Shown here piece after piece: positions 486 through 19,380 of a stretch of 32,077 bases of DNA; positions within the stretch are counted from its first letter, which is position 1, and each line of letters starts with the position of its first letter. The DNA lies in the IMG/VR virus record IMGVR_UViG_3300035130_000185, positions 1 through 32,077 of that record; one strand, 5' to 3'. Made by a program: the position numbers and the translations under genes. The DNA comes from a virus. The notes beneath the pieces were generated by a model. It did no database searches and was not told where the DNA came from. It saw nothing but the letters and a program-made list of their open reading frames with translations.

Positions 486-1825
486 CACTCGCCCTCCTCA
501 CCATCACCATCCTCCGGCGGCAGCATCGCACGCAGCGCGTCGGCAAGCGCCCGCAGTTTGCCTCTGTCCTCGCTCTGCCGCCAGCCATTCACGTCGCCGA
601 AGAACTCCTTCTGCATCGTCTCGGCGGTCTCGCCCCCGTACGCCTTGCGCACGCGCGGCAGGTACGTCCGCACTTGGCTACGCCACCACTCGGTCTTGTC
701 CACCTGGTCGGCCGTCGGCACCTCGCGCGGCAGACGCTTGTCGGCAGGCAGAGGAGGGGAGGGGGCTGGAGGCGGCGCCGCCGCGCCCTGCGGCGAGGCG
801 GGAGGAGGGCTCGGCGCGGCGGGTGAGGCCGCCGCCTCCAGCTTGGCTTGCAACTCCGCCGGCGGCGTCTGCCAGTCGAAGCCGGGCATGTTCAGCGCGT
901 CGCTCGCGGCTGGATGCCGCAGGTGCTCGCAGAGTAGGTAGATGCGGCCGCCGCCTGTCTTGGAATCCGCCAAGTTGCACGTGAAGGGCCGATCTGGCCC
1001 TGCGTTCTTCTCCGTGTCGCGCTTGTATCGAGCGAGTTTGCTGTAGGTCACGAATCGCACATGGTCGGGCTGCCCGTAGGCCGTGAAGGTGCGCTTGGTG
1101 CCCTCCTTGCCGCAGTCCTCCTCCTGGAGAATCTTCTTCATCCATCCTGAGAAGCCACCGCGCATCTTGGCGAAGGTCGCATCGGGGGGCTCCGCCTCGG
1201 CGGGCCAGTCGTCGGGCACGGCCGGTTGCGGCGGGCCGTTGCGGTTCCGCCGACCATCGGTGTCCTCGATTCCCGTCACGAGCCCGAAGGCGGGAAGCAC
1301 CGTATAGCGATGAGCGTACGTGAGACTGCTGCCGAGCGCTTGGATGGCATTCTTGCCGCCCGACATGTCGCCAGGCACATCGAGGGACGTTCGCTCGCTG
1401 TGCCCTGCGATGTGAGTCACCACGCACGAGACCGTCGTGTAGCCCTGCTGTGCGGCTGGCGCGTACTCGAAGCGATACGACAGGCCGCAGGCTTGGCAGG
1501 GTCCGCGGATCTCGTCTGCGATAGCGCCCAGGCTCGAATGCTTGTAGTGGGTGACCTGCCCACCCTTGCCTGTGTATTTGACCTCAGCGTCCTTCTCCAG
1601 GGTGGACATCATGCCCTGGAACTCGGTCATTGCGTGATAGAATGCCTTGCGGGCCTGGTCGGCATTCCAGCGCTCCTGAAGCGCCATGAGCCGCTCCAAC
1701 TTCTCCAGGTCGAGGTCCTTGGCCACGGCCATCTGGAGAAGCGCGGCTGGGGTGCCCGCCTCCTCGACCACGGCAGGCAGTTGCGGCTCCGTCACCACCT
1801 CGGGCACTTGCGGCTCGTCAGCCAT
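485..1825 (-). CDS. erf: ERF-family single-strand annealing recombinase
   Basis: ERF proteins anneal complementary single strands during phage recombination or genome circularisation. In the 446-residue product the ERF domain lies at about residues 60-190: AFYHAMTEFQGMM, then VTHYKHSSLGAIADEI, then the diagnostic GSSLTYAHRYTVLPAFGLV and a GIEDTDG end. A long Pro/Ala-rich linker (about 335-365) joins a charged C-terminal helical domain, an architecture common in this family. The start at 1825 has AGGAGG six bases upstream and is preferred over the GTG/ATG further up, which would overlap the preceding gene by more. No partner exonuclease or SSB is recognisable in the window; a small gene and the recombinase overlap by 8 bases. 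Confidence 0.9.
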   Translation of the reverse strand: MADEPQVPEVVTEPQLPAVVEEAGTPAALLQMAVAKDLDLEKLERLMALQERWNADQARKAFYHAMTEFQGMMSTLEKDAEVKYTGKGGQVTHYKHSSLGAIADEIRGPCQACGLSYRFEYAPAAQQGYTTVSCVVTHIAGHSERTSLDVPGDMSGGKNAIQALGSSLTYAHRYTVLPAFGLVTGIEDTDGRRNRNGPPQPAVPDDWPAEAEPPDATFAKMRGGFSGWMKKILQEEDCGKEGTKRTFTAYGQPDHVRFVTYSKLARYKRDTEKNAGPDRPFTCNLADSKTGGGRIYLLCEHLRHPAASDALNMPGFDWQTPPAELQAKLEAAASPAAPSPPPASPQGAAAPPPAPSPPLPADKRLPREVPTADQVDKTEWWRSQVRTYLPRVRKAYGGETAETMQKEFFGDVNGWRQSEDRGKLRALADALRAMLPPEDGDGEEGE

Positions 1826-2018
1826 TCTCGGCCTCCTGGTCTTTGCGCAGGAACTCACCCAACAGCAGCATCATTTGGGAGGGCGCGGCGATCACGCGCT
1901 CGCCTTCGCCCTGGACCGCGATCTTCTCGTCGAGGAAGGCGACGGCAGAGGACTTCTCACCAGCGAGCACGGCCCACAGCCGCCGATACTCTCCGAGCGT
2001 TTGCGGCTCATCGGACAT
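1818..2018 (-). CDS. Hypothetical protein (66 aa)
   Basis: Starts at ATG 2018 behind an AGAGGAG Shine-Dalgarno and ends inside the start region of the ERF gene, so the two are probably co-translated. The product (MSDEPQTLGEYRRLW...) is mixed acidic/helical and contains a GEGERVIAAPSQMMLLLGEFL stretch that may form a beta-turn-helix. No known motif. The N-terminal DEPQ matches that of ERF (MADEPQ), which may reflect a small local duplication around the shared ribosome-binding site. Confidence 0.72.
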   Translation of the reverse strand: MSDEPQTLGEYRRLWAVLAGEKSSAVAFLDEKIAVQGEGERVIAAPSQMMLLLGEFLRKDQEAENG

Positions 2019-2178
2019 TCTCGGGCTCCTCTTGCAGGATCGCGTTCAGCCGCTTCGGCGTCGTCGCCACGGCCACGATCTCCTTCTGCGCCGCCTCCGG
2101 CAGATGCACGTGGTACTTCGCAGCGGCGACTTCCAGTGTCCGCTGTGCCACGCGGCGTGCGAACTCGTCAGGCTTCAT
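2008..2178 (-). CDS. Hypothetical protein (56 aa)
   Basis: A short basic-to-acidic helical protein starting MKPDEFARRVAQRT. The start at 2178 is chosen for the AAGGAGGAGAACG ribosome-binding site; longer in-frame extensions are arginine-rich shadow sequence over the neighbouring gene. Both ends overlap neighbours (11 bases each side), typical of this operon. The function is not recognisable. Confidence 0.7.
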   Translation of the reverse strand: MKPDEFARRVAQRTLEVAAAKYHVHLPEAAQKEIVAVATTPKRLNAILQEEPENVR

Positions 2179-2416
2179 CGTTCTCCTCCTTGTCCCACTC
2201 CGCCACGATCCGCTCCCAGTCCGCCAGTTCCTGGCGCGCCAGAGGGATCGCTTCGCGCAATTCCTCGATGTACTCGCTCGGTTCCCGCGGCGTGCATTCC
2301 CACCAGTAGCTACAGTCCTGGCACTCGCCGCACGGCGGCTCAACCGGGAAGCCATAGGCGTCCCGGCCCCAGTATTCGTGGTAGTTGCGCCGACCGCAGA
2401 CGGGGCACTCAGCCAT
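2168..2416 (-). CDS. Small cysteine-rich putative zinc-binding protein (82 aa)
   Basis: Cysteines at residues 4 and 7 (CPVC) and at 29, 32, 35 and 41 (CGECQDC...C) could hold one or two zinc ions; the aromatic NYHEYWGRDAYGFP segment lies between them. The C-terminal half is an acidic helix (EYIEELREAIPLARQELADWERI). The start has AGAGGAG about ten bases upstream. Small zinc-finger proteins of this size are common in phage early regions and often bind host proteins or nucleic acid, but the target cannot be read from sequence. Confidence 0.75.
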   Translation of the reverse strand: MAECPVCGRRNYHEYWGRDAYGFPVEPPCGECQDCSYWWECTPREPSEYIEELREAIPLARQELADWERIVAEWDKEENDEA

Positions 2417-2729
2417 CGCTCTCGGACTCCTCTTTCGGCAGCGGCTGCCCGCACCTCGAGCACACCGCCACCGGCGGGTTCACCTCCGCCTCATAGGCGG
2501 CCCGCGCGTCGGCGATTGCGCGCAGGTAGCCCCCGCTGATGCGCAGACCCTCAGCCTCAACAGCCTTCGCGCAGAATCGCAGCATGTGGGTTGCGGGGAT
2601 GGCGCGCGCGAGCGCCTCGGCGCGCCGTCGCCACGTCGCCGCGTCCTCCTCGGCCGCGACACGCAGCGTCTCCACAAGCGTGTAGTGCGAGTGCCAGTAG
2701 GCCGCCTCGGAGCGCGTGGTGTTGGGCAT
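2409..2729 (-). CDS. Helical protein with C-terminal CxxC knuckle (106 aa)
   Basis: Starts MPNTTRSEAAYWHSHYTL at ATG 2729 with AGAGGAG upstream, one base after the stop of the preceding gene. The body is a long Ala-rich helical region, followed by a single half zinc knuckle CSRCG at residues 90-94 and an acidic tail. One CxxC alone would need dimerisation or a partner to bind metal. Longer upstream extensions are low-complexity arginine-rich shadow sequence and were rejected. Confidence 0.7.
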   Translation of the reverse strand: MPNTTRSEAAYWHSHYTLVETLRVAAEEDAATWRRRAEALARAIPATHMLRFCAKAVEAEGLRISGGYLRAIADARAAYEAEVNPPVAVCSRCGQPLPKEESESDG

Positions 2730-2730
2730 T

Positions 2731-3060
2731 TCAGGGCTCCTCTGTGACCTGCGAGTGCCGCTCATGCAGCGGAAAACTGACCAGCCGCCCGCCATCGTCG
2801 GGGTCCTCGGCGGCGAACCGGTCCTCGATGGGCAGCCCGTGCCGCGCGCAAGCGTCACGTATCCACACTGCGAGCTGCTCGACGTAGGGGCACGTGAAGT
2901 GCGCCTCCTCGTCGTCGGCGTGGTGCCATTCCAGCCTTTCGGCGCAGCCCTCCACGGGGCACGCCGGCGGATGTTCCTCCCACCATTCCGCGTCGCGGTC
3001 GCGTCGCTCCACGCGCAGCGGCAGGTCGGGCGACGGCTCGGGACACGCTTCGATCTGCAT
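2731..3060 (-). CDS. Small zinc-finger-like protein (109 aa)
   Basis: Chosen start is ATG 3060 preceded by TTGGAG; an upstream TTG/ATG pair at 3129/3126 lacks a ribosome-binding site and would translate the hairpin at 3077-3105. The protein has a C-x4-C ... HH ... C arrangement (C34, C39, H46/H47, C57: CPVEGC, LEWHH, FTCPY), a plausible Cys/His zinc site, followed by a helix and a Pro/Asp-rich tail. Unknown function. Confidence 0.68.
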   Translation of the reverse strand: MQIEACPEPSPDLPLRVERRDRDAEWWEEHPPACPVEGCAERLEWHHADDEEAHFTCPYVEQLAVWIRDACARHGLPIEDRFAAEDPDDGGRLVSFPLHERHSQVTEEP

Positions 3061-3076
3061 CGTCGGCTCCAAGTTG

Positions 3077-3105
3077 GGCGCCCCGGCCCCGCCGGCCGGG
3101 GCGCC
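3077..3105 (-). promoter_or_regulatory. Perfect 12-bp GC hairpin in the leader of the 2731-3060 gene
   Basis: The arm GGCGCCCCGGCC (3077-3088) and its exact complement (3094-3105) are separated by five bases. The hairpin lies between the HTH gene's stop and the ribosome-binding site for the next gene, with no T-run, so it is more likely an mRNA stability or translation-control element than an intrinsic terminator. Confidence 0.6.
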
Positions 3106-3147
3106 GTGGCTGTGCAGGCGAGACATCAACAGGGTTCACGCCATAGG

Positions 3148-3360
3148 CTACTCCTTACAAGTTCGAGGGCGTCCGACCGGCTCCCGGCAGGTGGGGCAGA
3201 CGTGCAGATTGAGCGCATCGAGCACGTCGCTCGCCTTCACCCTGCCCTGGCCGCTGCCGTAGCGCGGGATCGTCCCGGCCTTGATGGCCGCGAGGATGTC
3301 GGCCTCCTCGACGCCGAAGTAGGCGGCGGCCTCACGGATGGATACGGGCCTCTCTGCCAT
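3148..3360 (-). CDS. Excisionase-like helix-turn-helix DNA-binding protein (70 aa)
   Basis: Residues 7-50 (VSIREAAAYFGVEEADILAAI, then KAGTIPRYGSGQGRVKASDVLDAL) match the MerR-type/excisionase HTH used by phage Xis-like proteins and small regulators: helix-turn-helix, a wing around GSGQGR, then a capping helix. An added C-terminal CPTC (55-58) with C68 may bind zinc. ATG 3360 follows AGAGGAG. It is the first gene after a 0.8 kb gene-free stretch and so is well placed to bind repeated sites there. No integrase is in the window, so a true excisionase role is not shown. Confidence 0.75.
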   Translation of the reverse strand: MAERPVSIREAAAYFGVEEADILAAIKAGTIPRYGSGQGRVKASDVLDALNLHVCPTCREPVGRPRTCKE

Positions 3361-7894: not shown

Positions 7895-8341
7895 TCAGTC
7901 CTCGACGGCCTCGGCGGCATACGCTGTCGCGGCGCGGGCGGCGGCCTGTGCGCTCGCCGCGTCGTCGAACAGGTAGCCGCGGAAATCGCCACAGTCCCAA
8001 AACGTGCCGTCGCCACCCGCGATTTCGCGAGCTGACAGTCTCCCAACGATGGCCTCAACGTGCTCCGGTGTTCCGTTGGGCACGAAAACGCACCAGCATG
8101 TGTCGTATTCCTCGACGGCGCCATCCGCCTCTAGCGCGGCCTCGACTTGTGCGGGGTCGGGCGCGGGGGTGCTGTCCGCCGCCAGGATGATCCTGGGATC
8201 GTTGTGATCGTCAGTCCAGCCTGCCAGCGCTGTGCCCGTCGGATACGCCTCCCAGGCGTCGGTCACTGCCTCGGCGGCAGGGTGTGGCCGGTAGACTGCG
8301 ACCAGCCCTGCGGTCACAACCCAAACCCGTTGTGCGTCCAT
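7895..8341 (-). CDS. Hypothetical protein (148 aa)
   Basis: ATG 8341 follows TTGGAGGTAGTGAC, the conserved end of a repeated leader. The product (MDAQRVWVVTAGLVAVYRP...) mixes short strands and helices with a central EEYDTCWCVFVPNGTPEHVEAIV and a C-terminal Ala-rich helix after DGTFWDCGDFRGYLFDD. No recognised family. It is the largest gene downstream of the repeated hairpin leaders. Confidence 0.75.
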   Translation of the reverse strand: MDAQRVWVVTAGLVAVYRPHPAAEAVTDAWEAYPTGTALAGWTDDHNDPRIILAADSTPAPDPAQVEAALEADGAVEEYDTCWCVFVPNGTPEHVEAIVGRLSAREIAGGDGTFWDCGDFRGYLFDDAASAQAAARAATAYAAEAVED

Positions 8342-8343
8342 GT

Positions 8344-8432
8344 CACTACCTCCAATCCTGGAGTGCGCCAGGTCGCCCCGCGCGACGGCACGGGCTGGGA
8401 GGCGGTGTCGCAGCACCGCCCCCGGAGCCCAG
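8344..8432 (-). ncRNA. Repeated structured leader, copy 1
   Basis: Read on the minus strand: an outer CTGGG/CCCAG stem (8428-8432/8395-8399) around GGCGGTG/CACCGCC (8401-8407/8414-8420), then a GGGGCGA box, a CCTGG/CCAGG hairpin (8368-8372/8357-8361) with loop CGCACT, and finally ATTGGAGGTAGTG, which provides the ribosome-binding site. Bases 8344-8379 match copy 2 at 35 of 36 positions. Confidence 0.6.
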
Positions 8433-8436
8433 GCCG

Positions 8437-8685
8437 TCAGCGGACGATGCCGGACTCGTGCAGGTGGGCGTACCAGGTCTTGCCCGCATCGTCGGGGTCC
8501 GGCGTAGCCACGATGTAGCGATCGTCCTGCACCGGACCGCGCGGCGTCTGCCGCGTCTGGTGGATGGTGCATTCGATGCAGATCGGCGTGCCCGCCGGGA
8601 AGTTGCGCATGTCCCCGGTCAGGCGATTCGGATCGCCGCCCATACCACGCTGAGAGTAAAACGTGCCTGCCACCATGGTCTCCAT
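8437..8685 (-). CDS. Hypothetical small beta protein (82 aa)
   Basis: Starts METMVAGTFYSQRGMGG at ATG 8685, behind ATTGGGGGTAGTGCG. It contains ICIECTIHQT and a YIVATPDPDDAGKTWYAHL strand-turn-strand region. The METMVAG and MEMQISL starts of this and the next gene share leader sequence, so the cassette layout is repeated even though the proteins differ. No known domain. Confidence 0.72.
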   Translation of the reverse strand: METMVAGTFYSQRGMGGDPNRLTGDMRNFPAGTPICIECTIHQTRQTPRGPVQDDRYIVATPDPDDAGKTWYAHLHESGIVR

Positions 8686-8687
8686 CG

Positions 8688-8776
8688 CACTACCCCCAAT
8701 CCTGGAGTGCGCCAGGTCGCCCCCGACGACGGCCGGGGCTGGGGCGCCCCCGCGAGGGCGCCCGGAGCCCAGGTCG
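8688..8776 (-). ncRNA. Repeated structured leader, copy 2
   Basis: Same order as copy 1: GGGCGCCC arms at about 8742-8765 forming a GC hairpin, a GGGGCGA box, CCTGG/CCAGG (8712-8716/8701-8705) with loop CGCACT, then ATTGGGGGTAGTG just ahead of ATG 8685. Sequence outside 8688-8723 differs from copy 1 but keeps the large hairpin. Confidence 0.6.
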
Positions 8777-8980
8777 TCACTTTGCCAAGTGGTCGTGTAC
8801 CAGCGCGCGCCAGTACTCACGATCCTCTTGGCTCGGCTTGCAGGTGTAGTTAGCCGGCCCTAGAGACGAGCCGCGCCAGTGCCCACCGGCAATGTCGAGC
8901 TCGGGCAGGCTACCGCTGTAGTGGCGATAGGTGCCGCGGTACCGTTTGCCGTCTACCGTCAGGCTGATCTGCATCTCCAT
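8777..8980 (-). CDS. Hypothetical protein (67 aa)
   Basis: Starts MEMQISLTVDGKRYRGTYRHY at ATG 8980 after ATTGGGGGTAGTGCG. The N-terminus predicts a beta hairpin (ISLTVDGKRYRGTYR) and the C-terminus a helix (EDREYWRALVHDHL). Size and order fit a single-domain early peptide. No family recognised. Confidence 0.72.
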   Translation of the reverse strand: MEMQISLTVDGKRYRGTYRHYSGSLPELDIAGGHWRGSSLGPANYTCKPSQEDREYWRALVHDHLAK

Positions 8981-8982
8981 CG

Positions 8983-9077
8983 CACTACCCCCAATCTGGC
9001 GTAGCGGCCAGTCGCCCCGCGCGGCGGCGCAGGCGCCGGCCGTGCGCCCGCAGGCGGGCCGGCGTCGGGGCCGCGGC
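8983..9077 (-). ncRNA. Repeated structured leader, copy 3 with compensatory changes
   Basis: Keeps the GGGGCGA box and ATTGGGGGTAGTG end but the small hairpin is now CTGGC/GCCAG (9007-9011/8996-9000) with loop CGCTAC. Three of five pairs differ from copies 1 and 2 and all remain complementary. A larger GC hairpin rich in GCCGGCC lies upstream (about 9032-9062). Confidence 0.6.
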
Positions 9078-12199: not shown

Positions 12200-12421
12200 T
12201 CAGCCGCATGGCCGTGTGCGCTGCGCCTGCTGCTTGGAGATCGGGAGTGCGCAGAGGAGGATGTGTGCTCTTTCGGGCTCGACCTCGCGGAGGTGGTTGA
12301 GGCGGTCGATGGGGTGTGTCTCGATGGTGATGGTGTGCCAGTCGATGAGTTCTGGTCTGCCCGTGGGGCAGCGGGGCAGGTCCATGATGGTGACGAGCCA
12401 GTGCTCAGTGGGCGTCGGCAT
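12200..12421 (-). CDS. MPxPTE-family small protein (73 aa), end of unit A
   Basis: Starts MPTPTEHWLVTIMDLPRC at ATG 12421 and overlaps the preceding gene by 17 bases. Shares the MP(T/I)PTE N-terminus with the genes at 14308, 14727 and 15094, which points to duplication of the gene start and leader. The body predicts a beta-alpha fold (DWHTITIETHPIDRLNHLREVEPERAHILLCAL) with a basic tail. Unknown function. Confidence 0.68.
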   Translation of the reverse strand: MPTPTEHWLVTIMDLPRCPTGRPELIDWHTITIETHPIDRLNHLREVEPERAHILLCALPISKQQAQRTRPCG

Positions 12422-12809
12422 CTTGACTATCCTTCTGAGCGATTCGGAGGGCTTGGACGAGGCAGTCTGTGCAGACTCGCGTGCGTGAGGCGAAGCCTGG
12501 TGCTGGCGAGCCGATGTGGTTGACGATGACCCTTGTGGCTTTGATTTGTCTGCACCAGTCGCAGAAGCCTTTTGCGTTGGGGAGTAGGTCGATTGTGGCG
12601 CACGGTACCTCGTAGGGGAATCGCCAGTCGGGGCTCCCTGCGGCGGGCTGTCGGGGCTCCCACTCGCCGCAGTGGTCCGAGGCATACGGGCGCGGGCGCC
12701 CGCGCTTGGGGTCGCTTGGCGGTGGATATCGCCAGCAGGTGCCCTGACGAGGGTCAAGCTGGGAGTTATGCCAGAACCGGCAGTTCTCGCATCGGTTGTC
12801 ATCAGGCAT
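12405..12809 (-). CDS. Double zinc-site protein (134 aa)
   Basis: The N-terminal half has CENCRFW, CWRYPPP and HCGEW (C7, C10, C25, C47), a pattern common in small phage and bacterial proteins of unknown role with C-x2-C ... C-R-P-P ... W/H-C-G-E. The C-terminal half has a second four-cysteine site (C83, C86, C113, C116). ATG 12809 overlaps the preceding stop and has no own Shine-Dalgarno, so translation is probably coupled. Confidence 0.75.
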   Translation of the reverse strand: MPDDNRCENCRFWHNSQLDPRQGTCWRYPPPSDPKRGRPRPYASDHCGEWEPRQPAAGSPDWRFPYEVPCATIDLLPNAKGFCDWCRQIKATRVIVNHIGSPAPGFASRTRVCTDCLVQALRIAQKDSQDADAH

Positions 12810-13059
12810 GGTGGGGATGCTTTCTCGCATAGAGACCCACGAAGCCGATCTTGCGCAACTCCTCGACCGTGTAGTGCGGTGTAGGCTTCGGTGGTCCAAT
12901 GACGTGGCGGTGAATCCAGGCGAGGTGCTGGTTCCATTCGGCGCGGCGGGCATCTGGGCCGGCGCGCGCGGCCTCGCGGCTGTAGTAATGCTCCGACTCG
13001 GCGTCGCGGTCCATTGGGTCCCTGATATTGCTGAGCCATCGGAGGTTGTCATCAGGCAT
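12802..13059 (-). CDS. Hypothetical protein (85 aa)
   Basis: Starts MPDDNLRWLSNIRDPMDRDAESEHYY at ATG 13059 behind AGGAGAGCCAAG. Helical, rich in His, Arg and Trp (WNQHLAWIHRHVIGPPKP), with a YTVEELRKIGF helix near the end. It shares the MPDDN start and the leader with its downstream neighbour. No recognised domain. Confidence 0.72.
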   Translation of the reverse strand: MPDDNLRWLSNIRDPMDRDAESEHYYSREAARAGPDARRAEWNQHLAWIHRHVIGPPKPTPHYTVEELRKIGFVGLYARKHPHHA

Positions 13060-13342
13060 CTTGGCTCTCCTGAGTCTGTGGCAGCCCTGGAAAGTCGGTT
13101 GGTTCGGGCATGTCGATCCAGGGTCCCCAGACGCCGATGGCATCGAGCTCGTGGCAGGGCACCCGTCGCTTCCAACCGATGACGAATGCGTATGGGACAC
13201 GATGGCGGAGTTCAATCTTGACGACCATGGGTTCGAGGATGGTGGGGAGGTAGGTTGGGAGAAACCAGCGGTAGGGAGTAGTCAGAGGGTGGTTGGGTGG
13301 GTAGTAGGGTGGTGCCTTGGCTGGGGTGGCGTCGTCAGGCAT
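13052..13342 (-). CDS. Hypothetical Pro/Trp-rich protein (96 aa)
   Basis: ATG 13342 with GGGGAGCCAAG upstream; MPDDATPAKAPPYYPP start. A proline- and aromatic-rich N-terminus leads to a beta-rich core (MVVKIELRHRVPYAFVIGWKR) and GVWGPWIDMP. Ends SQDA like its upstream neighbour. Function unknown. Confidence 0.72.
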   Translation of the reverse strand: MPDDATPAKAPPYYPPNHPLTTPYRWFLPTYLPTILEPMVVKIELRHRVPYAFVIGWKRRVPCHELDAIGVWGPWIDMPEPTDFPGLPQTQESQDA

Positions 13343-13664
13343 CTTGGCTCCCCTTCTTCGCGTCGAGCGGCGTCTCGTCCCATGTGAAACCGCAGCGCGA
13401 GCAGGTGCGGCGGATGTGCTCGACGTACTGCCTGGAAAAGCCTTGGTCCTGGAGGGCGGCTATGGGCGCGACGGTTGCGGTAAGGTGGGCGATGTTGCTA
13501 CAGGTCTGGACACAGGCGATGCGAGCTTCCTCTGCGGTGGTGAGTTGCTTGCCCTGCGGATTGAACCAGTGCAGTTCTTGCTCCCACCGTGCGTATGCGT
13601 GGGGGGAGCCGCACTTGGGGCAGGCGGTGCGCGAGCCGAAGGGCTTGAGGGTCTGGTCAGGCAT
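13335..13664 (-). CDS. Zinc-ribbon-like protein (109 aa)
   Basis: CPKCG at residues 15-19 and CSRCGFTW at 88-95 bracket a helical insert and could form one zinc ribbon. The middle contains helical ATVAPIAALQDQGFSRQYVEHI. ATG 13664 follows GAAGGAGG. Overlaps the next gene by 8 bases. Likely a nucleic-acid- or protein-binding early factor; target unknown. Confidence 0.75.
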   Translation of the reverse strand: MPDQTLKPFGSRTACPKCGSPHAYARWEQELHWFNPQGKQLTTAEEARIACVQTCSNIAHLTATVAPIAALQDQGFSRQYVEHIRRTCSRCGFTWDETPLDAKKGSQDA

Positions 13665-13691
13665 CGGGGCCTCCTTCGCTGGCAGGTTGTC

Positions 13692-13889
13692 TCAGGCGTG
13701 CCACTTGGGCATGTCCTCGAAGATGGTGACGCCTTCACTGTAGCCGAGGGAGATGAGGAGTTTGCACATGAGGACGTCAGCATCCCAATGGGCAATCTCT
13801 CGGTCGCCGTGCTTAGCGGCATGGGCATATCGGCGCATGGCGTCGGCGAATTCCGTGGGGGACATGGGCTGAGGGGTCTGGTCAGGCAT
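13692..13889 (-). CDS. Hypothetical protein (65 aa)
   Basis: Starts MPDQTPQPMSPTEFADAMRRY at ATG 13889 after AGAGGAGAGCCAAG. Helical with His/Asp-rich middle (KHGDREIAHWDADVLM) and a C-terminal strand (GVTIFEDMPKW). Shares MPDQT with the next gene, again suggesting leader-plus-start duplication. Confidence 0.72.
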   Translation of the reverse strand: MPDQTPQPMSPTEFADAMRRYAHAAKHGDREIAHWDADVLMCKLLISLGYSEGVTIFEDMPKWHA

Positions 13890-13909
13890 CTTGGCTCTCC
13901 TCTGGAGGA

Positions 13910-14308
13910 TCAGTGGGCGCGGTCATCGTCGGGCTCCTTCCGCTGCGCGACCCGCCGACAGCGTTCGGCTTCATCGGCGAAGTGCCATTTGTAGGTTCCT
14001 GGGGCTTGGTCCTGCAACTCCGCCAACGCCTCGGCGACCTTGGGCACCATGAGCGAAAGCGTCAAGACCCGTTCCACGGCAGCCGCCAACTTTTCTAGGG
14101 CGGCCAATCGCTCCGGCGACGGGATGCGGGCTCCCCACTCGCCGCCGAGCTCTGATGCCTTGACGAAGCTGTGCATGCCTGCGCGCCAGACGATTGGTTC
14201 ACCGTCCATATCCTTGGCGAACTCTAGCTCCACGACCTCCCATCCGCCGCCATCATCGGGCTCGTAGAGGCGCCAGTGGTACCAGCCGGGCTCAGTCGGG
14301 GTGCTCAT
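13910..14308 (-). CDS. PTEPGWYxW-family protein (132 aa)
   Basis: N-terminal domain with TEPGWYHWRLYEPDDGGGWEVVELEF then GEWGARIPSPERLAAL is paralogous to that of the gene at 14711-15094 (TEPGWYWWRPDDGG ... GEWGERIPSQKRL). This PGWYWW...WG-x-R-I layout occurs in small phage proteins with a beta-sheet fold of unknown role. A C-terminal helical extension follows. ATG 14308 forms ATGA with the preceding stop. Confidence 0.75.
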   Translation of the reverse strand: MSTPTEPGWYHWRLYEPDDGGGWEVVELEFAKDMDGEPIVWRAGMHSFVKASELGGEWGARIPSPERLAALEKLAAAVERVLTLSLMVPKVAEALAELQDQAPGTYKWHFADEAERCRRVAQRKEPDDDRAH

Positions 14309-14727
14309 GGCCGAAACTCCACCTGGAGGTCGAGCAGTTTGATCTCGTCGCCGCACGGCAACTCGGGGAAGTCGGGATCGCAGTAGTCCCGGATGAAGTC
14401 GGCGCGGTTGCAATCGCATCCGTAGTTGCCATCGGTCCACATGAAGCGCGCCGAATCGGACGGGTACTCGAGCCCGAAGTCATAGGGGAATCTGTAGACG
14501 TGGCCCTTGTAGGCGAGAGTGATGACGGCGACGGTGCGGCGATGCGTCAGGTTGCCGGTCTCGTGGACGTGCATGACGCAGAATGGTCGCATTGCTTCGA
14601 GCGCGGCCTCCGCCTGGACTTGGGAGCGGGTGTAGAAATGACGCTCGTCGCCACAGCCGAGGATGTCAGCGACGAGCTGTTCATCACGCCCCCACCAGGT
14701 CACATAATGCTCAGTCGGTATCGGCAT
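14305..14727 (-). CDS. MPIPTE-family hypothetical protein (140 aa)
   Basis: Starts MPIPTEHYVTWWGRDEQLVADIL at ATG 14727, with GGAG upstream. Beta-rich centre (HRRTVAVITLAYKGHVYRFPYDF) followed by an acidic aromatic stretch GNYGCDCNRADFIRDYCDPDFPELPCGDE with five cysteines, possibly metal-binding. Ends in a strand (KLLDLQVEFRP). No named family recognised. Confidence 0.72.
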   Translation of the reverse strand: MPIPTEHYVTWWGRDEQLVADILGCGDERHFYTRSQVQAEAALEAMRPFCVMHVHETGNLTHRRTVAVITLAYKGHVYRFPYDFGLEYPSDSARFMWTDGNYGCDCNRADFIRDYCDPDFPELPCGDEIKLLDLQVEFRP

Positions 14728-15094
14728 CGTCGGGCTCCGGCACAAGGAAATCCTCTGGATGATCCTGGGCGAGTGCCCATGGGCAGTAGCGGGCGTGGAC
14801 ATCATCGCCAAAACCGCAGTAGGCACAAGCGCCGGCCTCGCCGTCGGGGAACGTGGCGAGGAGCCGTGCAGTGGCAATGAGCCGTTTCTGGGACGGGATG
14901 CGCTCGCCCCACTCGCCGTCGTCATCGAGCCGCGTCCAATCCTCGGGCCGATGCGTGCTGTACGTCAGGGATGAGACGAAGAGCGGCTTTCCAGGGATGG
15001 CGTTGGCGCGCCAGACCTTCACGCACTCCCAGTCGAAGATGCCGCCGTCGTCGGGGCGCCACCAGTACCAGCCTGGCTCAGTGGGGATTGGCAT
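14711..15094 (-). CDS. PTEPGWYxW-family protein with zinc knuckle (127 aa)
   Basis: N-terminal TEPGWYWWRPDDGG domain is shared with the gene at 13910-14308. After GEWGERIPSQKRL comes CAYCGFGDDVHARYCPW (C90, C93, H100, C104), a compact CCHC zinc site. ATG 15094 has GGAGG upstream and overlaps the preceding gene. The paralogue lacks the zinc site, so the two have diverged in their C-termini. Confidence 0.76.
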   Translation of the reverse strand: MPIPTEPGWYWWRPDDGGIFDWECVKVWRANAIPGKPLFVSSLTYSTHRPEDWTRLDDDGEWGERIPSQKRLIATARLLATFPDGEAGACAYCGFGDDVHARYCPWALAQDHPEDFLVPEPDDADTD

Positions 15095-15353
15095 CTTGGG
15101 CCTCCAGTGGATGCGCGGCCAGGTGCTTCGCCAGCGCCGCGTCGGCCTGAGCCTTGGCGTCGGCGAGGGTACGCGCCCCACCGACGGTGGCGGGAAATAG
15201 ACCAGTCCTGCCGTAGCGGAAGTCGTCCACCGCCCAGTGGTAGCGGCCGGGCTCGATGAAGTCCACTCTGGCGGTCACTGGTGAGTCGGTGCGGATGGAA
15301 GCCGGCCGTTTCCAGGTGGCCACGCACCAGCCTTCTTCAATGTGGTTCGGCAT
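15078..15353 (-). CDS. Hypothetical protein (91 aa)
   Basis: Starts MPNHIEEGWCVATWKRPASI at ATG 15353 behind AGAGGAGAGCCAAG. Beta-strand N-terminus (ARVDFIEPGRYHWAVDDF) then an Ala-rich helix (TLADAKAQADAALAKHLAAH). The EEGW/EPGRYHW segments echo the PGWYxW neighbours. Function unknown. Confidence 0.72.
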   Translation of the reverse strand: MPNHIEEGWCVATWKRPASIRTDSPVTARVDFIEPGRYHWAVDDFRYGRTGLFPATVGGARTLADAKAQADAALAKHLAAHPLEAQDANPH

Positions 15354-15373
15354 CTTGGCTCTCCTCTGGAGGC

Positions 15374-15853
15374 TCAGTGGGCGTCGGCATCGTCAGGCTC
15401 CCGTTCTCGCTTCAGATCCGCGCCGAGCCGCACCCATCCGTCGCGTTCCATGCCGAAATGCGGAAGGCACCGCACCGTGTCAGGGCCGCCGCCGCAATCT
15501 GGCGAGGCGGCGCGGTGGCAATGCAGGGCCTCCAGGCCATCCCATCCTGGGGGCAGTACGCCGGATGCGCCGCAGCGGTCGCAGAACCACGGCATCCCCA
15601 GTTCAGTGGGCGTCGGCTCGTCGGCCTCGTGCTTCCCTCTCACTACCGCTGTCGGGTCCAGCAGGACGACGGTCGGCTCCATGGCCTTGAGGCGAACGAG
15701 CGCGTCCCGCGTGGCCTTCAAGCAGTCATTCCAGCCTTCTAGGTAAGCGCGCTGGATGGCTTCCGCCACCCCGGCAGTGCCCCCGTCGGGGCCTGCATCC
15801 CAGACAGGGATGCCGCGGTCGTTCAGTTTCCAGGGCAAGAGTAGCGTGCACAT
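15374..15853 (-). CDS. Cys/His-containing hypothetical protein (159 aa)
   Basis: Starts MCTLLLPWKLNDRGIPVWDAG at ATG 15853, overlapping the preceding stop, with AAGGGG upstream. A central helix (AIQRAYLEGWNDCLKATRDALVRL) resembles the short helical domain found in many small phage proteins; a CDRCGASG (91-98) plus later Cys/His residues may bind zinc. Internal PTPTEL recalls the MPTPTE starts of neighbours. Ends DDADAH. Confidence 0.72.
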   Translation of the reverse strand: MCTLLLPWKLNDRGIPVWDAGPDGGTAGVAEAIQRAYLEGWNDCLKATRDALVRLKAMEPTVVLLDPTAVVRGKHEADEPTPTELGMPWFCDRCGASGVLPPGWDGLEALHCHRAASPDCGGGPDTVRCLPHFGMERDGWVRLGADLKREREPDDADAH

Positions 15854-16146: not shown

Positions 16147-16239
16147 GCCGGCCCCGCCGTGTACTCGCGTGCAGAGTCCCAGGTGGGCGACGGGGCCGGC
16201 TCTCCGATGTCTGGGTTTCTGGACTCTGGACTCTGCACG
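16147..16239 (-). promoter_or_regulatory. 5' leader of unit A with interleaved 12-bp and 10-bp perfect stems
   Basis: CGTGCAGAGTCC (16168-16179) is complementary to 16228-16239, and GCCGGCCCCG (16147-16156) to 16191-16200. The two pairs interleave, which defines either an H-type pseudoknot or two exclusive folds. The predicted transcription start (about 16241) places the first stem at the very 5' end of the RNA. The final strand ends about 20 bases before the start codon's Shine-Dalgarno region. Confidence 0.75.
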
Positions 16240-16247
16240 ATGCGTCC

Positions 16248-16276
16248 ATTGTAGGCGGGCTGGGCCACGGCGTCAA
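16248..16276 (-). promoter_or_regulatory. Sigma-70-type promoter of minus-strand unit A
   Basis: TTGACG (16276-16271) and TACAAT (16253-16248) with a 17-base spacer; hexamers identical to the unit B promoter. It faces away from the + strand promoter at 16308, and the two -35 boxes form an 8-bp inverted repeat. Confidence 0.85.
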
Positions 16277-16313
16277 GCGGAAAGTGGCGAGATTCGCCGG
16301 AAAGTGCTTGACG
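16271..16313. promoter_or_regulatory. Shared operator-like region between divergent promoters
   Basis: CGTCAAGC (16271-16278) and GCTTGACG (16306-16313) are inverted copies containing the two -35 boxes. Between them are direct repeats CGGAAAGTG (16278-16286 and 16298-16306, 20 bases apart) flanking the palindrome GGCGAGATTCGCC (16286-16298). The symmetry suggests a regulator that controls both directions. Confidence 0.6.
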
Positions 16314-16337
16314 GGGCCGTGCCGGGGGTGGTAGGAT
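16308..16337 (+). promoter_or_regulatory. Promoter of the Tat-module operon
   Basis: TTGACG (16308-16313) and TAGGAT (16332-16337) with an 18-base spacer; start expected near 16344, some 30 bases before the first start codon. The -10 is weaker than that of its leftward partner. Confidence 0.7.
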
Positions 16338-16375
16338 GGCTTCGTTGAGCCCACCGCGTGCAGGAGAGTCCAGAA

Positions 16376-16717
16376 ATGCAGACAAGCGATCCCGTGACGC
16401 GCTTCCTCGATGTGGATAAGCAATGGGAGGACCAGGAGAGTGCCCTGGCCGCTGCCGCCCCCATCCGCCAGCGACTGGAAGCCGCTGCGAAGCAGATGTT
16501 CGAGCAGACGGGTAACGTACCCGCCATCGTGGTGCTCCCAAAGAAGGACCGCATGCAACTCGTCGCATGCGCGAATGCCTTGGAGCCGCCTCACGGCTCG
16601 CCATTCGACCCTTACGGGAAACTCACATACCAGTTGCCGATAGGCGCCCGGGTGCAGATCGTGACGCCCGGCATCGACGCGGTGGTGATCCCCGACACGG
16701 AGGAAGGCCATGGCTGA
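16376..16717 (+). CDS. Hypothetical protein, first gene of the Tat-module operon (113 aa)
   Basis: ATG 16376 follows AGGAGAGTCC; a GTG at 16358 lacks a ribosome-binding site. The helical first half (ALAAAAPIRQRLEAAAKQMFEQ) leads to a small alpha/beta segment: NVPAIVVLPKKDRMQLVACANAL and GARVQIVTPGIDAVVIPD. Soluble, with no signal peptide. Its stop overlaps the start of the first Tat-signal gene. Not a recognised family; the operon position suggests a cytoplasmic partner or regulator of the module. Confidence 0.72.
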   Translation: MQTSDPVTRFLDVDKQWEDQESALAAAAPIRQRLEAAAKQMFEQTGNVPAIVVLPKKDRMQLVACANALEPPHGSPFDPYGKLTYQLPIGARVQIVTPGIDAVVIPDTEEGHG

Positions 16718-17102
16718 CAGAGTGAACCGACGCGGCTTCCTTGGCCGCCTTGGCATTGGCGCGGCGGCGGTTGTCCCTGCTGTGTATCGCCCGAAGGAGG
16801 AACCGAAGCCCGCCAAGCCGGAGCCGGAGTTCGACGAGCAGGGGCGGGTGGTGATTCCATGCCCGTGCTGCGGGCGGAAACAGGCCGCGCCGATGCCCGT
16901 TGTGGGCGCGGCGGACGGCACGACGCTGATGTGCGACGAGTGCTATCGGCGACTCAAGCAAGTGAACGGGCCGCCGCCTCACTCGCGGCCGGAATTGCGG
17001 CTCACGGGCGGTCCTCTGAGCTTCAATACGCCGGAGGGGCGCCCGTTCAGGGAGCAGACATTGGCGGAGTTGTTCGCGCAGGCGAAGGGGGAACGCCGAT
17101 GA
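16710..17102 (+). CDS. Tat-signal zinc-ribbon protein (130 aa)
   Basis: The N-terminus MADRVNRRGFLGRLGIGAAA has a classic twin-arginine motif (N-R-R-G-F-L, residues 6-11) and a short weakly hydrophobic h-region up to about residue 26. A charged Pro/Lys linker then leads to a zinc ribbon with CPCC (51-54) and CDEC (75-78). Folding around zinc in the cytoplasm before export is a known reason for using Tat. The remaining C-terminus is polar. ATG 16710 has GGAGGAAGG upstream. The zinc-ribbon segment is duplicated in the next gene. No obvious signal-peptidase site, so it may stay membrane-anchored. Confidence 0.82.
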   Translation: MADRVNRRGFLGRLGIGAAAVVPAVYRPKEEPKPAKPEPEFDEQGRVVIPCPCCGRKQAAPMPVVGAADGTTLMCDECYRRLKQVNGPPPHSRPELRLTGGPLSFNTPEGRPFREQTLAELFAQAKGERR

Positions 17103-17233
17103 CGACACTGGAGCCTGAGCTTGACGAGCAAGGGCGGGTGGTGATTTTATGCCCGTGCTGCGGGCGGAAGCAGGCCGCGCCCACGGCGGCCATCGGCGCG
17201 GCGGACGGCACGGCGCTCCTCTGCGATGCATGT
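16833..17233 (+). repeat. Two direct copies of a 111-bp zinc-ribbon coding segment
   Basis: Bases 16833-16943 and 17123-17233 align without gaps (offset 290). They encode DEQGRVVI-x-CPCCGRKQAAP ... GAADGT in consecutive genes. Third-position and short central differences show divergence after an in-operon duplication. Confidence 0.85.
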
Positions 17234-17578
17234 TGCGCGCGACATCGTGTTTGGCTCAAGTGGAGCCTGCACTTGGCGTTCAGCACACTGCTCGCAGCCC
17301 CCTTCATTGCATTCGGGCCAGTTGCGCTTGTGTTTGCTTTGTGCGGTGCCGACTTCGCGGGCGCCTTCAGGAACGTGCCCGGCTCTTCTCTCTGCTGCCT
17401 CTTCAGCCTGCTTTGCGTCGATAACTGGATAGCGCTGGTGAGGCTACCGTGGCGCGGCGGCGGTCGGGACCTTCCTGTATACTGGCAGGGCCATCCGCCC
17501 TGGGCGGGCGACCGCGAAGCGATAGGAGACGACGAATGTCACTGGCCTTCTTCGGGCTCGGCTCGACGGAGTTGCTGA
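17099..17578 (+). CDS. Zinc-ribbon membrane protein (159 aa)
   Basis: ATG 17099 overlaps the preceding stop as ATGA. Residues 9-46 repeat the zinc ribbon of the previous protein (CPCC 18-21, CDACC 42-46) but there is no Tat leader. Instead two hydrophobic segments follow (about 53-85, LHLAFSTLLAAPFIAFGPVA; and about 96-115, with SLCCLFSLLC). So the ribbon is probably held at the inner membrane face, where it could meet the TatA-like protein encoded next. The last 43 bases overlap the TatA gene in another frame; the C-terminal tail in that overlap is not conserved-looking. Confidence 0.72.
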   Translation: MTTLEPELDEQGRVVILCPCCGRKQAAPTAAIGAADGTALLCDACCARHRVWLKWSLHLAFSTLLAAPFIAFGPVALVFALCGADFAGAFRNVPGSSLCCLFSLLCVDNWIALVRLPWRGGGRDLPVYWQGHPPWAGDREAIGDDECHWPSSGSARRSC

Positions 17579-17727
17579 TCATCGCAGGGGTGCTCGTGCT
17601 CCTGTTCGGCGGCTCGCAGTTGCCGAAGGTGGCTCGCGCGCTCGGGCAGAGCGTGCTGGAGTTGAGGCGCGGGACGCGGGAGTTGCGGCGGCTGGACTGC
17701 AAGGACGACGATGATGCTCGCCCCTGA
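17536..17727 (+). CDS. tatA: TatA/E-family twin-arginine translocase subunit
   Basis: TatA forms the protein-conducting part of the Tat system that exports folded proteins. The 63-residue product has every hallmark: a short periplasmic-side start with F6-G7 and the conserved acidic residue E12 (FFGLGSTELLII), a single membrane helix (about 12-24), the FG hinge (F24-G25), the LP pair (29-30) and an amphipathic helix (VARALGQSVLELRRGTREL), ending in a polar Asp-rich tail. The usual long unstructured C-tail is missing. ATG 17536 follows AGGAGA. It lies among four genes whose products begin with twin-arginine motifs. A phage-borne tatA is unusual; no tatB or tatC is in the window, so it would act with host TatBC or alone as a membrane-thinning peptide. 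Confidence 0.88.
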   Translation: MSLAFFGLGSTELLIIAGVLVLLFGGSQLPKVARALGQSVLELRRGTRELRRLDCKDDDDARP

Positions 17728-18022
17728 CGCTCTCGCGGCCTTCCGCGATGCCGCCCAAGCCCAGATGCGTCGCGAGGTGCGCTGCCGACACAGGTGGCTG
17801 GAGCTTGGCTTCGGGGACGCCGGCGTACTCAGCGCGCAGTCGGATGCTCCTGCGCTGGCCATACAGTACTTGCCGTGGGAGGGCTTCTCACGCAGAAGAT
17901 GTCCCTGCTGCGGAGAAGAGGCGAGGACGTGGGAGTGTGGCCGTCGGGAGGTGTTGCATTGTGCCGCCTGCGGGTACGGGCGGGAGAGACAATCGAGCGA
18001 GGAGTCCACGGATGAATCGTAG
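17711..18022 (+). CDS. Zinc-ribbon protein (103 aa)
   Basis: Paired ATGs at 17711/17714 overlap the tatA stop. After a helical start (AFRDAAQAQMRREVRCRHRWLEL) comes RRCPCCGEEAR ... LHCAACGYGRE (C64/C66/C67, C84/C87), a rubredoxin-knuckle zinc ribbon. No signal peptide or membrane helix, so it should be cytoplasmic. It could be a metal- or protein-binding chaperone for the exported proteins beside it, but that is inference from position only. Stop overlaps the next start. Confidence 0.75.
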   Translation: MMLAPDALAAFRDAAQAQMRREVRCRHRWLELGFGDAGVLSAQSDAPALAIQYLPWEGFSRRRCPCCGEEARTWECGRREVLHCAACGYGRERQSSEESTDES

Positions 18023-18512
18023 CCGACGGAACATGCTGCGGCTCGCGGCGGGCGCCGTGGGCGCGCCGCTGCTCTGCAACGGGAAGCCCGTCGAGGCGGC
18101 GCCGAAGTCGTCGCAGACTGCCGACGAGTTGGCGGGGGCGCCGGAGTTCAGCATCGGCGGGTTCAGGCTGGCTATGCGCTTCGACGACGTGAGGGAGTTC
18201 GCCGTTGCCACTCCGGCCGAGGTCGCGGCGGCAGGCGCGAAGCCGGTGGACTTCAACGGTGTGGCCAGCATCACGTGGCTGCCACCGGGGCTTCATTATG
18301 AGGTCTGGCTCGTTGTGGCGCCTGGCGGTCCGGAGACGGAGGCCAAGGGCGACTGGCAGACGGTCGTGCGGTATCACTGTCCGGACTGCGGCTACAGAGG
18401 CGCGGTATGTGGCAGTGGCCCCACGGTGCCATTCCTCAACTCGACGCGGTGCCCCTCCTGTGAGCGATACAGCCTAGTGGTGCAGGAGCCGGCGAAGGAG
18501 CGGCAGCGATGA
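18012..18512 (+). CDS. Tat-signal protein with C-terminal zinc ribbon (166 aa)
   Basis: MNRSRRNMLRLAAGAVGAPL carries S-R-R-N-M-L (4-9) and a moderately hydrophobic core typical of Tat signals. VEA-AP near residue 29 is a plausible signal-peptidase site. The mature part has a beta-rich domain (EFSIGGFRLAMRFDDVREF, ASITWLPPGLHYEVWLVVAP) and ends in a zinc ribbon (C123, C126, C133, C147, C150). ATG 18012 overlaps the preceding gene. An exported protein that must bind zinc fits Tat use. Enzymatic function not recognised. Confidence 0.8.
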   Translation: MNRSRRNMLRLAAGAVGAPLLCNGKPVEAAPKSSQTADELAGAPEFSIGGFRLAMRFDDVREFAVATPAEVAAAGAKPVDFNGVASITWLPPGLHYEVWLVVAPGGPETEAKGDWQTVVRYHCPDCGYRGAVCGSGPTVPFLNSTRCPSCERYSLVVQEPAKERQR

Positions 18513-18739
18513 ACCGGCGCGATTCCGTACGGCGCTTGGCAACATGCGCCCCGAGGCCCGCACCGCGAATAGACGGTTGGCCGCGAGAAGCCCTGCCGCA
18601 TGCGGTCTACGACATCGGCGGCTGGCCCTGCGACTGCGCGGAAGACGTTGGGCTGCGACTGTTCTGGCGGATGCTGGAGGAACGTCCGAGTGGTGAGGGC
18701 GTGTTCTACGATACCGTTCCGAGAGAGGGGTCAGAATGA
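18509..18739 (+). CDS. Small protein with degenerate twin-arginine start (76 aa)
   Basis: ATGA overlap with the preceding stop and AAGGAG upstream. It begins MNRRDSVRRLATCAPRP, with the same MNRR start as its neighbours but no hydrophobic core, so export is doubtful. The rest (YDIGGWPCDCAEDVGLRLFWRML) is helical with a CxC. It may be a decayed Tat substrate or a soluble interactor that kept only the duplicated start. Confidence 0.65.
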   Translation: MNRRDSVRRLATCAPRPAPRIDGWPREALPHAVYDIGGWPCDCAEDVGLRLFWRMLEERPSGEGVFYDTVPREGSE

Positions 18740-18984
18740 ACCGCCGCGAGTTCCTTTCTCTGTGTGGGCTCGGCGCGGCAGGGGCGGCGCTCGCGCCGCT
18801 GGCGCGGCCTGGCTTCACAGGGAAACCCGGCTTGTACTACTACGTCGTCACGAAGCCTCGCCGATACGGGCCACCCCTGACGGCGGAGCGCTTTGATGCC
18901 TGTCTGCGTAAGGTGATGGAGCGGAACGCGAGGCCGGGACAGCGGTGGATAGGCGCCAGCAGCAAGCCCGTCGGAAAAATCTGA
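18736..18984 (+). CDS. Tat-signal small protein (82 aa), last gene of the module
   Basis: MNRREFLSLCGLGAAGAALA is a textbook Tat signal: N-R-R-E-F-L then a Gly/Ala-rich h-region, with A-L-A/P-L-A around residue 20-23 as possible cleavage sites. The mature peptide (about 58 residues) is basic: GKPGLYYYVVTKPRRYGPPL, then AERFDACLRKVMERNARPGQRW. ATGA overlap with the preceding stop. Such a small basic exported peptide could act in the envelope or outside the cell. Function unknown. A new promoter starts 12 bases after the stop. Confidence 0.82.
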   Translation: MNRREFLSLCGLGAAGAALAPLARPGFTGKPGLYYYVVTKPRRYGPPLTAERFDACLRKVMERNARPGQRWIGASSKPVGKI

Positions 18985-18995
18985 CAAGAATCTGC

Positions 18996-19025
18996 TTGAC
19001 ACGCCATATTGGCACGCGGTAGAAT
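18996..19025 (+). promoter_or_regulatory. Strong sigma-70-type promoter ahead of the non-coding RNA
   Basis: TTGACA (18996-19001) and TAGAAT (19020-19025), spacer 18. The spacer contains the palindrome GCCATATTGGC (19003-19013), a possible operator. Start expected near 19032. Confidence 0.82.
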
Positions 19026-19031
19026 GCGCGT

Positions 19032-19380
19032 GTGCCGATTCGGCGCCATCGCCCACAAGTTGGCGGGCGTCGCCACGGCTTTGGCAGGATGCGCCGGGCG
19101 GGACGACGCCGAAGCACCCTGCTACACTGGTTTCCAGCCGGCATAGCCGGAGCCCCAACCTTGCGGCGTAAGGGGCCGGTCGGAACGCCACCGTCCGAGT
19201 AGGCAAGCAAAGCCGAAAGTAGGTTAGCCGCTCACTGAACACCGCCGGGTAAGCAGCCAAGGTACGCCGCTTACCCGGCGGCTTCATGCTGGGGCTACCC
19301 GCATCGACGCCTCGTGCGTAGTGGAGCCCCAGCAAGGCACCCAGCCCCGGAGCCGCCAACTGGCTCCGGGGCTTTCTTGT
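19032..19380 (+). ncRNA. Structured non-coding RNA or late-operon leader (about 350 nt)
   Basis: Flanked by its own promoter and an intrinsic terminator, with no credible reading frame. Perfect hairpins: CCGCCGGGTAAGC with 19269-19281 (13 bp), TGCTGGGGCT with 19325-19334 (10 bp), CCGGC/GCCGG near 19138-19150, and the terminator stem. GGGGCT at 19291-19296 can also pair with AGCCCC of the terminator arm (19343-19348), an antitermination possibility. Position before terminase recalls lambdoid late-promoter leaders; a packaging or trans-acting RNA is also possible. No known family recognised. Confidence 0.7.
19343..19380 (+). terminator. Intrinsic terminator before terminase
   Basis: AGCCCCGGAGCC (19343-19354), seven-base loop, perfect complement (19362-19373), then TTCTTGTT. 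Transcription of the head genes from the 18996 promoter would need readthrough or antitermination. Confidence 0.85.

Follow-up and report, generated by a model that had tools for sequence, protein, structure and literature searches.

A predicted phage-borne Tat export cassette pairing a TatA homologue with small twin-arginine proteins

The linear virus record IMGVR_UViG_3300035130_000185 (32,077 bases, analysed at its full length and referred to here as the window) was found to possess an operon of eight overlapping plus-strand Open Reading Frames (ORFs) at 16376–18984, which includes a gene for a TatA homologue (tatA, 17536–17727) and three genes for predicted substrates of the twin-arginine translocation (Tat) pathway. 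Judged from its sequence, the operon is probably a phage-borne Tat export cassette, in which the phage TatA would serve the TatBC complex of the host so that phage cargo is exported. A Tat export module had been proposed in an initial annotation of this DNA, and the proposal is now supported by a TatA profile match, by two proteins that pass a Tat-signal profile, by phage genes on both flanks and by recurrence in other phages, export itself being the predicted outcome. At least 14 further distinct tatA-bearing viral records were identified in IMG/VR (15 including the window). The recurrence of tatA together with leader-bearing genes suggests that certain phages carry, with their cargo, a helper of their own for exporting it.

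The product of tatA, p4, matched the Pfam family TatA_B_E (PF02416) with 45.6 bits (4e-12, cut-off 21), and no other credible Pfam match was obtained. The TatA assignment of the initial annotation, made from E12, the FG hinge and the amphipathic helix, is thereby borne out. Among the NCBIfam TatA and TatB models the best score was that of tatAE at 46.2 bits compared with 27.9 bits for tatB, both values lying below the curated cut-offs (53.9 for tatAE). The landmarks of p4 are E12, a membrane helix of 12 residues (L13–F24), an F24-G25 hinge, an amphipathic stretch and an acidic DDDD end. According to a published review, the polar residue makes the contact with TatC, and the 12-residue helix, the Phe and the Gly are hallmarks of TatA (PMC9527704). 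Among solved structures, the nearest relatives are a chloroplast TatA and bacterial TatAs, with a gapless alignment through the hinge, and in an alignment of seven diverse viral TatAs the acidic residue, the F, the G, an LP pair, R34 and G37 are invariant. On profile homology and residues, p4 groups with TatA rather than TatB, and the gene is confirmed by the same evidence as encoding a true TatA homologue.

The operon sits between a minus-strand left arm, which encodes an Erf-like annealing protein and a clamp-loader protein, and a plus-strand right arm with the terminase, portal/connector, major head protein and further virion genes. Base composition is even over the operon region and its flanks. 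The operon region is part of a real phage; misassembly of host chromosome next to phage genes, a concern raised in the initial annotation, is ruled out by the phage genes on both sides and by the even composition. Relatives of the window terminase, portal, capsid, ribbon and Tat proteins were sought in viral, phage and genome collections, and the only result was terminase similarity of 23–24% to Arthrobacter phages. A search for a host of the window phage, using its terminase against 392 Planctomycetota and 396 Actinomycetota genomes, gave no match. The window TatA was placed near that of Nonomuraea, on a branch without a star, in a tree of poor resolution; the patterns used to list cellular TatAs had biased that list.

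The position of the operon, immediately ahead of the terminase genes, is that of the lysis genes in phages of the lambda type, and it could be argued from this that the TatA-like protein acts in the membrane like a holin or as a depolarising peptide, serving lysis or the killing of the host, with leader-bearing neighbours unrelated to it. Small holins such as TpeE do have the same design, a short helix and then an amphipathic one, and may weaken membranes likewise, but the acidic TatC contact, the FG hinge and the LP, all invariant in the viral copies, are lacking in TpeE-like holins (PMC9527704). Furthermore, no significant match to an endolysin or spanin family was found within the operon, Tat cargo adjoins tatA in several phages, and in the clade of records described below tatA is found beside replication and csrA genes. 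A membrane-weakening role for TatA, which had been the alternative offered in the initial annotation, is less likely, and a dedicated lysis or killing peptide is considered very unlikely.

With regard to the cargo, the Tat-signal profile TIGR01409 (cut-off 16.7 bits) was exceeded at only two places in a six-frame search of the window, namely p2 (16710, 23.6 bits) and p8 (18736, 19.3 bits). A third protein, p6 (18012, MNRSRRNMLRLAAGAVGAPLL), fits the twin-arginine (RR) motif and the rule for the hydrophobic region (h-region), its score not reaching the profile cut-off. The initial annotation had counted p7 (18509, MNRRDSVRRLATCAPRPAPRIDG) as a fourth substrate; this was rejected, as the RR is present but an h-region is not. 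The Tat substrates supported by motif or profile are accordingly three in number, not four. All three RR leaders lie less than 4 kb from tatA, compared with zero matches for the KK, RK and KR controls, and the RR leaders near the window tatA exceed chance. Whether p8 is related to the cargo family found upstream of tatA in other records was also considered; beyond the leader, such a relationship is unsupported.

Paired CxxC motifs are present in four of the operon proteins (16710, 17099, 17711 and 18012, with spacings of 24, 24, 20 and 24, respectively), none of which reached the cut-off of a Pfam zinc-ribbon family. The zinc ribbons of the initial annotation are upheld as paired motifs and not as members of a Pfam ribbon family. 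The ribbons of p2 and p3 are paralogues with 60% identity, the one carried behind a Tat leader and the other fused to hydrophobic segments.

Other tatA-bearing records were sought by scanning IMG/VR with patterns taken from TatA alignments, near-copies being set aside; as exact conserved stretches were required, the count is a lower bound. The viral nature of these records is supported by phage-family matches, and Pfam confirms TatA in the outlying ones. Judged by size, G+C content (30–66%) and gene content, the 15 records apparently form about six groups that look unrelated. One of these is a helicase clade, named for its UvrD-like helicase. Phage tatA is under purifying selection, with non-synonymous divergence (dN) of about 0.09–0.32 compared with synonymous divergence (dS) of about 0.57–3.2 among nine tatAs of this clade (NG86). 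One Planctomycetota chromosome (of 392 genomes) holds a helicase-clade prophage with an integrase, a terminase and a twin-arginine gene, which indicates that the helicase clade, at least, infects Planctomycetota. No credible match to TatA was found in deposited phage genomes. TatC (PF00902) gave no match in 12 of the tatA records (the window and 11 others, which may be incomplete), while control genomes were positive, and host TatC would therefore be required.

The initial annotation had proposed to look for the gene neighbourhood in other phages, and an association of tatA with twin-arginine genes was found there: an RR-leader gene occurs less than 4 kb from tatA in 12 of the 15 records, compared with 57 of 400 random stretches from loci lacking tatA (p = 2e-8). 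Within the helicase clade tatA is present at 10 of 80 loci. Under a strict rule (ATG, a ribosome-binding-like site, RR-x-hydrophobic and an uncharged hydrophobic stretch), 13 RR leaders were counted in 208 kb of tatA-positive loci of this clade compared with 8 in 1,244 kb of tatA-negative loci, the KK, RK and KR controls together numbering 4 in each set (Fisher p 0.0004 per locus, for loci with at least 6 kb downstream). A looser rule gave 11.1 and 3.1 RR leaders per 100 kb, respectively; on its own this rule is noisy, since it also catches a structural-type protein of the clade (MSEPKIRRKFKA). An RR leader is found on the gene just upstream of tatA at eight of nine distinct tatA-positive loci of this clade, the exception among the 80 being L100 (records with such a gene are listed in Table 1). 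L177 has two RR-leader genes directly after tatA, L178 has one upstream and one downstream, and in G002 two adjacent RR-leader genes lie about 77 kb from tatA. Since L178 has RR leaders at a G+C content of 30%, an arginine-rich G+C bias is not their cause.

Several observations count against an export cassette. The helicase-clade loci share ancestry, so that the records are not independent and the p-values overstate independence. The RR-leader gene of L100 is about 4.5 kb from tatA, and no twin-arginine leader at all was found in the 90-kb record of G001. Many clade members have twin-arginine genes but no tatA in the stretch examined, which means that such cargo can do without tatA. Outside the window, most leaders fall below the TIGR01409 cut-off. 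The cargo proteins have no known function and no significant fold match; a model of A5, the Tat cargo family seen most often in the helicase clade, reached a pLDDT of 73 with no significant fold match, and A8, the cargo family upstream of tatA, was modelled poorly (pLDDT 54). In addition, searches of the viral, phage and genome collections returned no homologue of the cargo encoded in the window, which makes the window operon itself a single case.

It could be suggested from some of these observations that the leaders are real and used but that tatA is incidental, an occasional pick-up from the host with little effect on export, phages of Tat-reliant hosts simply using Tat leaders for envelope proteins. 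This would account for G001 and for the clade members with leaders and no tatA, and also for the Planctomycetota prophage, where no tatA was noticed in the stretch holding the twin-arginine gene. However, tatA occurs next to or near cargo genes far above expectation, immediately follows a cargo gene in the majority of clade members and is held by purifying selection, and an incidental tatA is therefore regarded as rather improbable.

The Tat pathway carries folded proteins, and cargo bound to TatBC recruits many copies of TatA (PMC9527704, PMC10092561). If the operon is an export cassette, the phage TatA would insert in the inner membrane during infection and, once phage cargo is bound to host TatBC, its N-terminal acidic residue would dock there, which fits the retention of the TatC-contact residue and the hinge. 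It would then polymerise with, or in place of, host TatA, and phage proteins that are small, already folded and probably metal-bound could be exported as a sudden load regardless of the host TatA level; alternatively, uncleaved leaders would leave the cargo anchored outside. Such cargo might act at the cell envelope, for example in superinfection exclusion or envelope remodelling, which is conjecture. A phage making a burst of Tat cargo could gain by bringing TatA, the component required in many copies, and the pathway is reportedly saturable (DeLisa 2004, listed in PMC8712718). From the homology, linkage, recurrence and constraint described above, we infer this docking, export and benefit.

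As no TatC is encoded, the phage TatA must act on host complexes, and this, along with the short C-terminal tail that is left, would also suit a decoy or dominant-negative protein that blocks or redirects host Tat, for instance against host Tat proteins or competing phages. A blocker would, however, also stop the phage's own adjacent twin-arginine proteins, and every activity-linked residue is kept, which makes a decoy quite unlikely. Extending the export cassette to the other records, several phage groups, some infecting Planctomycetota, may independently have acquired a module of TatA plus cargo for which the host Tat translocase is the outlet for folded phage proteins, a broader proposal to which roughly even weight is given.

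The arrangement initially annotated, a promoter followed by eight overlapping genes, was recovered, with a Shine-Dalgarno-like stretch for each ORF and a promoter-like site ahead of the first (Table 1). The promoter consensus scan returned 4 sites in the scanned region compared with 0.2 expected from shuffles. The third gene had been given as ending at 17539 and was corrected to 17578.

Table 1. Promoter-like sites and genes of the operon in the window, and other tatA-bearing records
Feature	Position	Strand	Description
Divergent promoter-like site	16248–16276	-	Consensus scan
Promoter-like site of operon	16308–16337	+	TTGACG, 18-nt spacer, TAGGAT, with TG before the second hexamer; consensus scan
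p1, 113 aa, first operon gene	16376–16717	+	No family reached its cut-off; GTG at 16358 is a possible alternative in-frame start
p2, 130 aa, predicted Tat cargo	16710–17102	+	Twin-arginine leader VNRRGFLGRLGIGAAAVVPAV, then CxxC-x20-CxxC ribbon; TIGR01409 match
p3, 159 aa	17099–17578	+	p2-like ribbon without Tat leader, then hydrophobic segments; 43-nt overlap with tatA
p4, 63 aa, TatA homologue	17536–17727	+	PF02416, tatAE and PDB TatA matches; viral TatA alignment
p5, 103 aa, soluble	17711–18022	+	CxxC pair (CPCC...CAAC), no leader; Zn_ribbon_IS1595 match weak, below cut-off
p6, 166 aa, predicted Tat cargo	18012–18512	+	Twin-arginine leader NRSRRNMLRLAAGAVGAPLL, possible cleavage site between VEA and AP; C-terminal CxxC-x20-CxxC ribbon; below TIGR01409 cut-off
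p7, 76 aa, not supported as Tat cargo	18509–18739	+	Starts MNRRD; no hydrophobic h-region, no profile match
p8, 82 aa, predicted Tat cargo	18736–18984	+	Twin-arginine leader MNRREFLSLCGLGAAGAALAPL; TIGR01409 match
G001			90-kb tatA record
G002			173-kb tatA record
L177			60-kb tatA record
L178			129-kb tatA record, G+C 30%
Helicase clade			Ten tatA records, marked by UvrD-like helicase
Gene just upstream of tatA with RR leader			L082, L083, L091, L104, L119, L133, L154, L156, L175

Around the divergent promoters (16169–16371) an operator-like set of sequences was noted: GTGCAGAGTCC occurs at 16169 and, as an exact reverse complement, at 16228, and GTGCAGGAGAGTCC, a spaced variant of it, occurs at 16358. 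Downstream of the operon, the plus-strand region 18996–19380 contains a near-consensus promoter (TTGACA-18-TAGAAT, 11/12), a non-coding stretch of ~320 nt with much better folding than its shuffled versions (z -4.5), and, immediately ahead of the terminase genes, a G+C-rich hairpin of 13 pairs followed by a T-rich tail. This region is a candidate phage structured RNA, and no Rfam family was found in it above threshold. Elsewhere in the window, repeats of 63 nt occur directly upstream of successive minus-strand genes (8337–8399, 8681–8743 and 8976–9038), and repeats of 24–59 nt occur at gene junctions (12403–15401); these are possibly repeated promoter or translation-control elements.

Some further genes of the tatA records were noted. 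The protein encoded directly upstream of tatA in L156 (13970–14608) has a twin-arginine leader and gives partial matches to major capsid profiles of the HK97 type (PHROG 617, 3.5e-6; TIGR01554, 23 bits, below cut-off), which looks like a piece of capsid protein tagged for export. Phage CsrA homologues (Pfam, 47–74 bits) are encoded between the helicase and the cargo or tatA genes in L091 (12183–12353), L100 (12171–12380) and L133 (12243–12407). Trypsin-like proteases with apparent Sec-type leaders are encoded a few kb from tatA in L005 (9938–12124) and L178 (532–1119), which are otherwise different phages, and L005 also encodes a Ro60/TROVE-type protein (1713–3308).

No earlier description of a phage-encoded TatA, of a phage Tat module or of a phage-carried translocase subunit coupled to cargo genes was found in open-licence PMC papers, which is not proof of novelty. 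Phages reach the envelope by way of host Sec and their own holins, and a translocase subunit carried with folded cargo would, if the present reading is true, be a different phage route to the envelope and a new means for phages to act there. It would also supply natural TatA variants for probing TatA's own contribution to Tat flux, and the exported uncharacterised phage proteins would be candidate envelope-acting factors, for example in Planctomycetota, whose phages are poorly known.

The phage protein resembles bacterial and plastid members of the TatA_B_E family (TatA, TatE and Tha4) in its profile match, its acidic or polar residue with 12-residue helix, its FG hinge, amphipathic helix and acidic end, whereas it is borne by a phage without tatB or tatC and is co-encoded in one operon with small cargo genes of its own. 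Some cellular operons likewise encode a Tat component together with its exported substrate, as known from two-component systems such as TatAdCd beside PhoD in Bacillus; those operons are chromosomal and include TatC, whereas the present one is on a phage and has TatA only, with several small cargo genes. Phage holins of the TpeE/BhlA type are likewise small proteins with one short membrane helix and an amphipathic helix, but there is no sequence relation and TpeE is without the TatA-specific residues (PMC9527704). Finally, as with phage auxiliary genes or morons, a host-derived gene appears to be kept to support infection, the difference being that here it encodes a protein-translocase subunit coupled to cargo genes.

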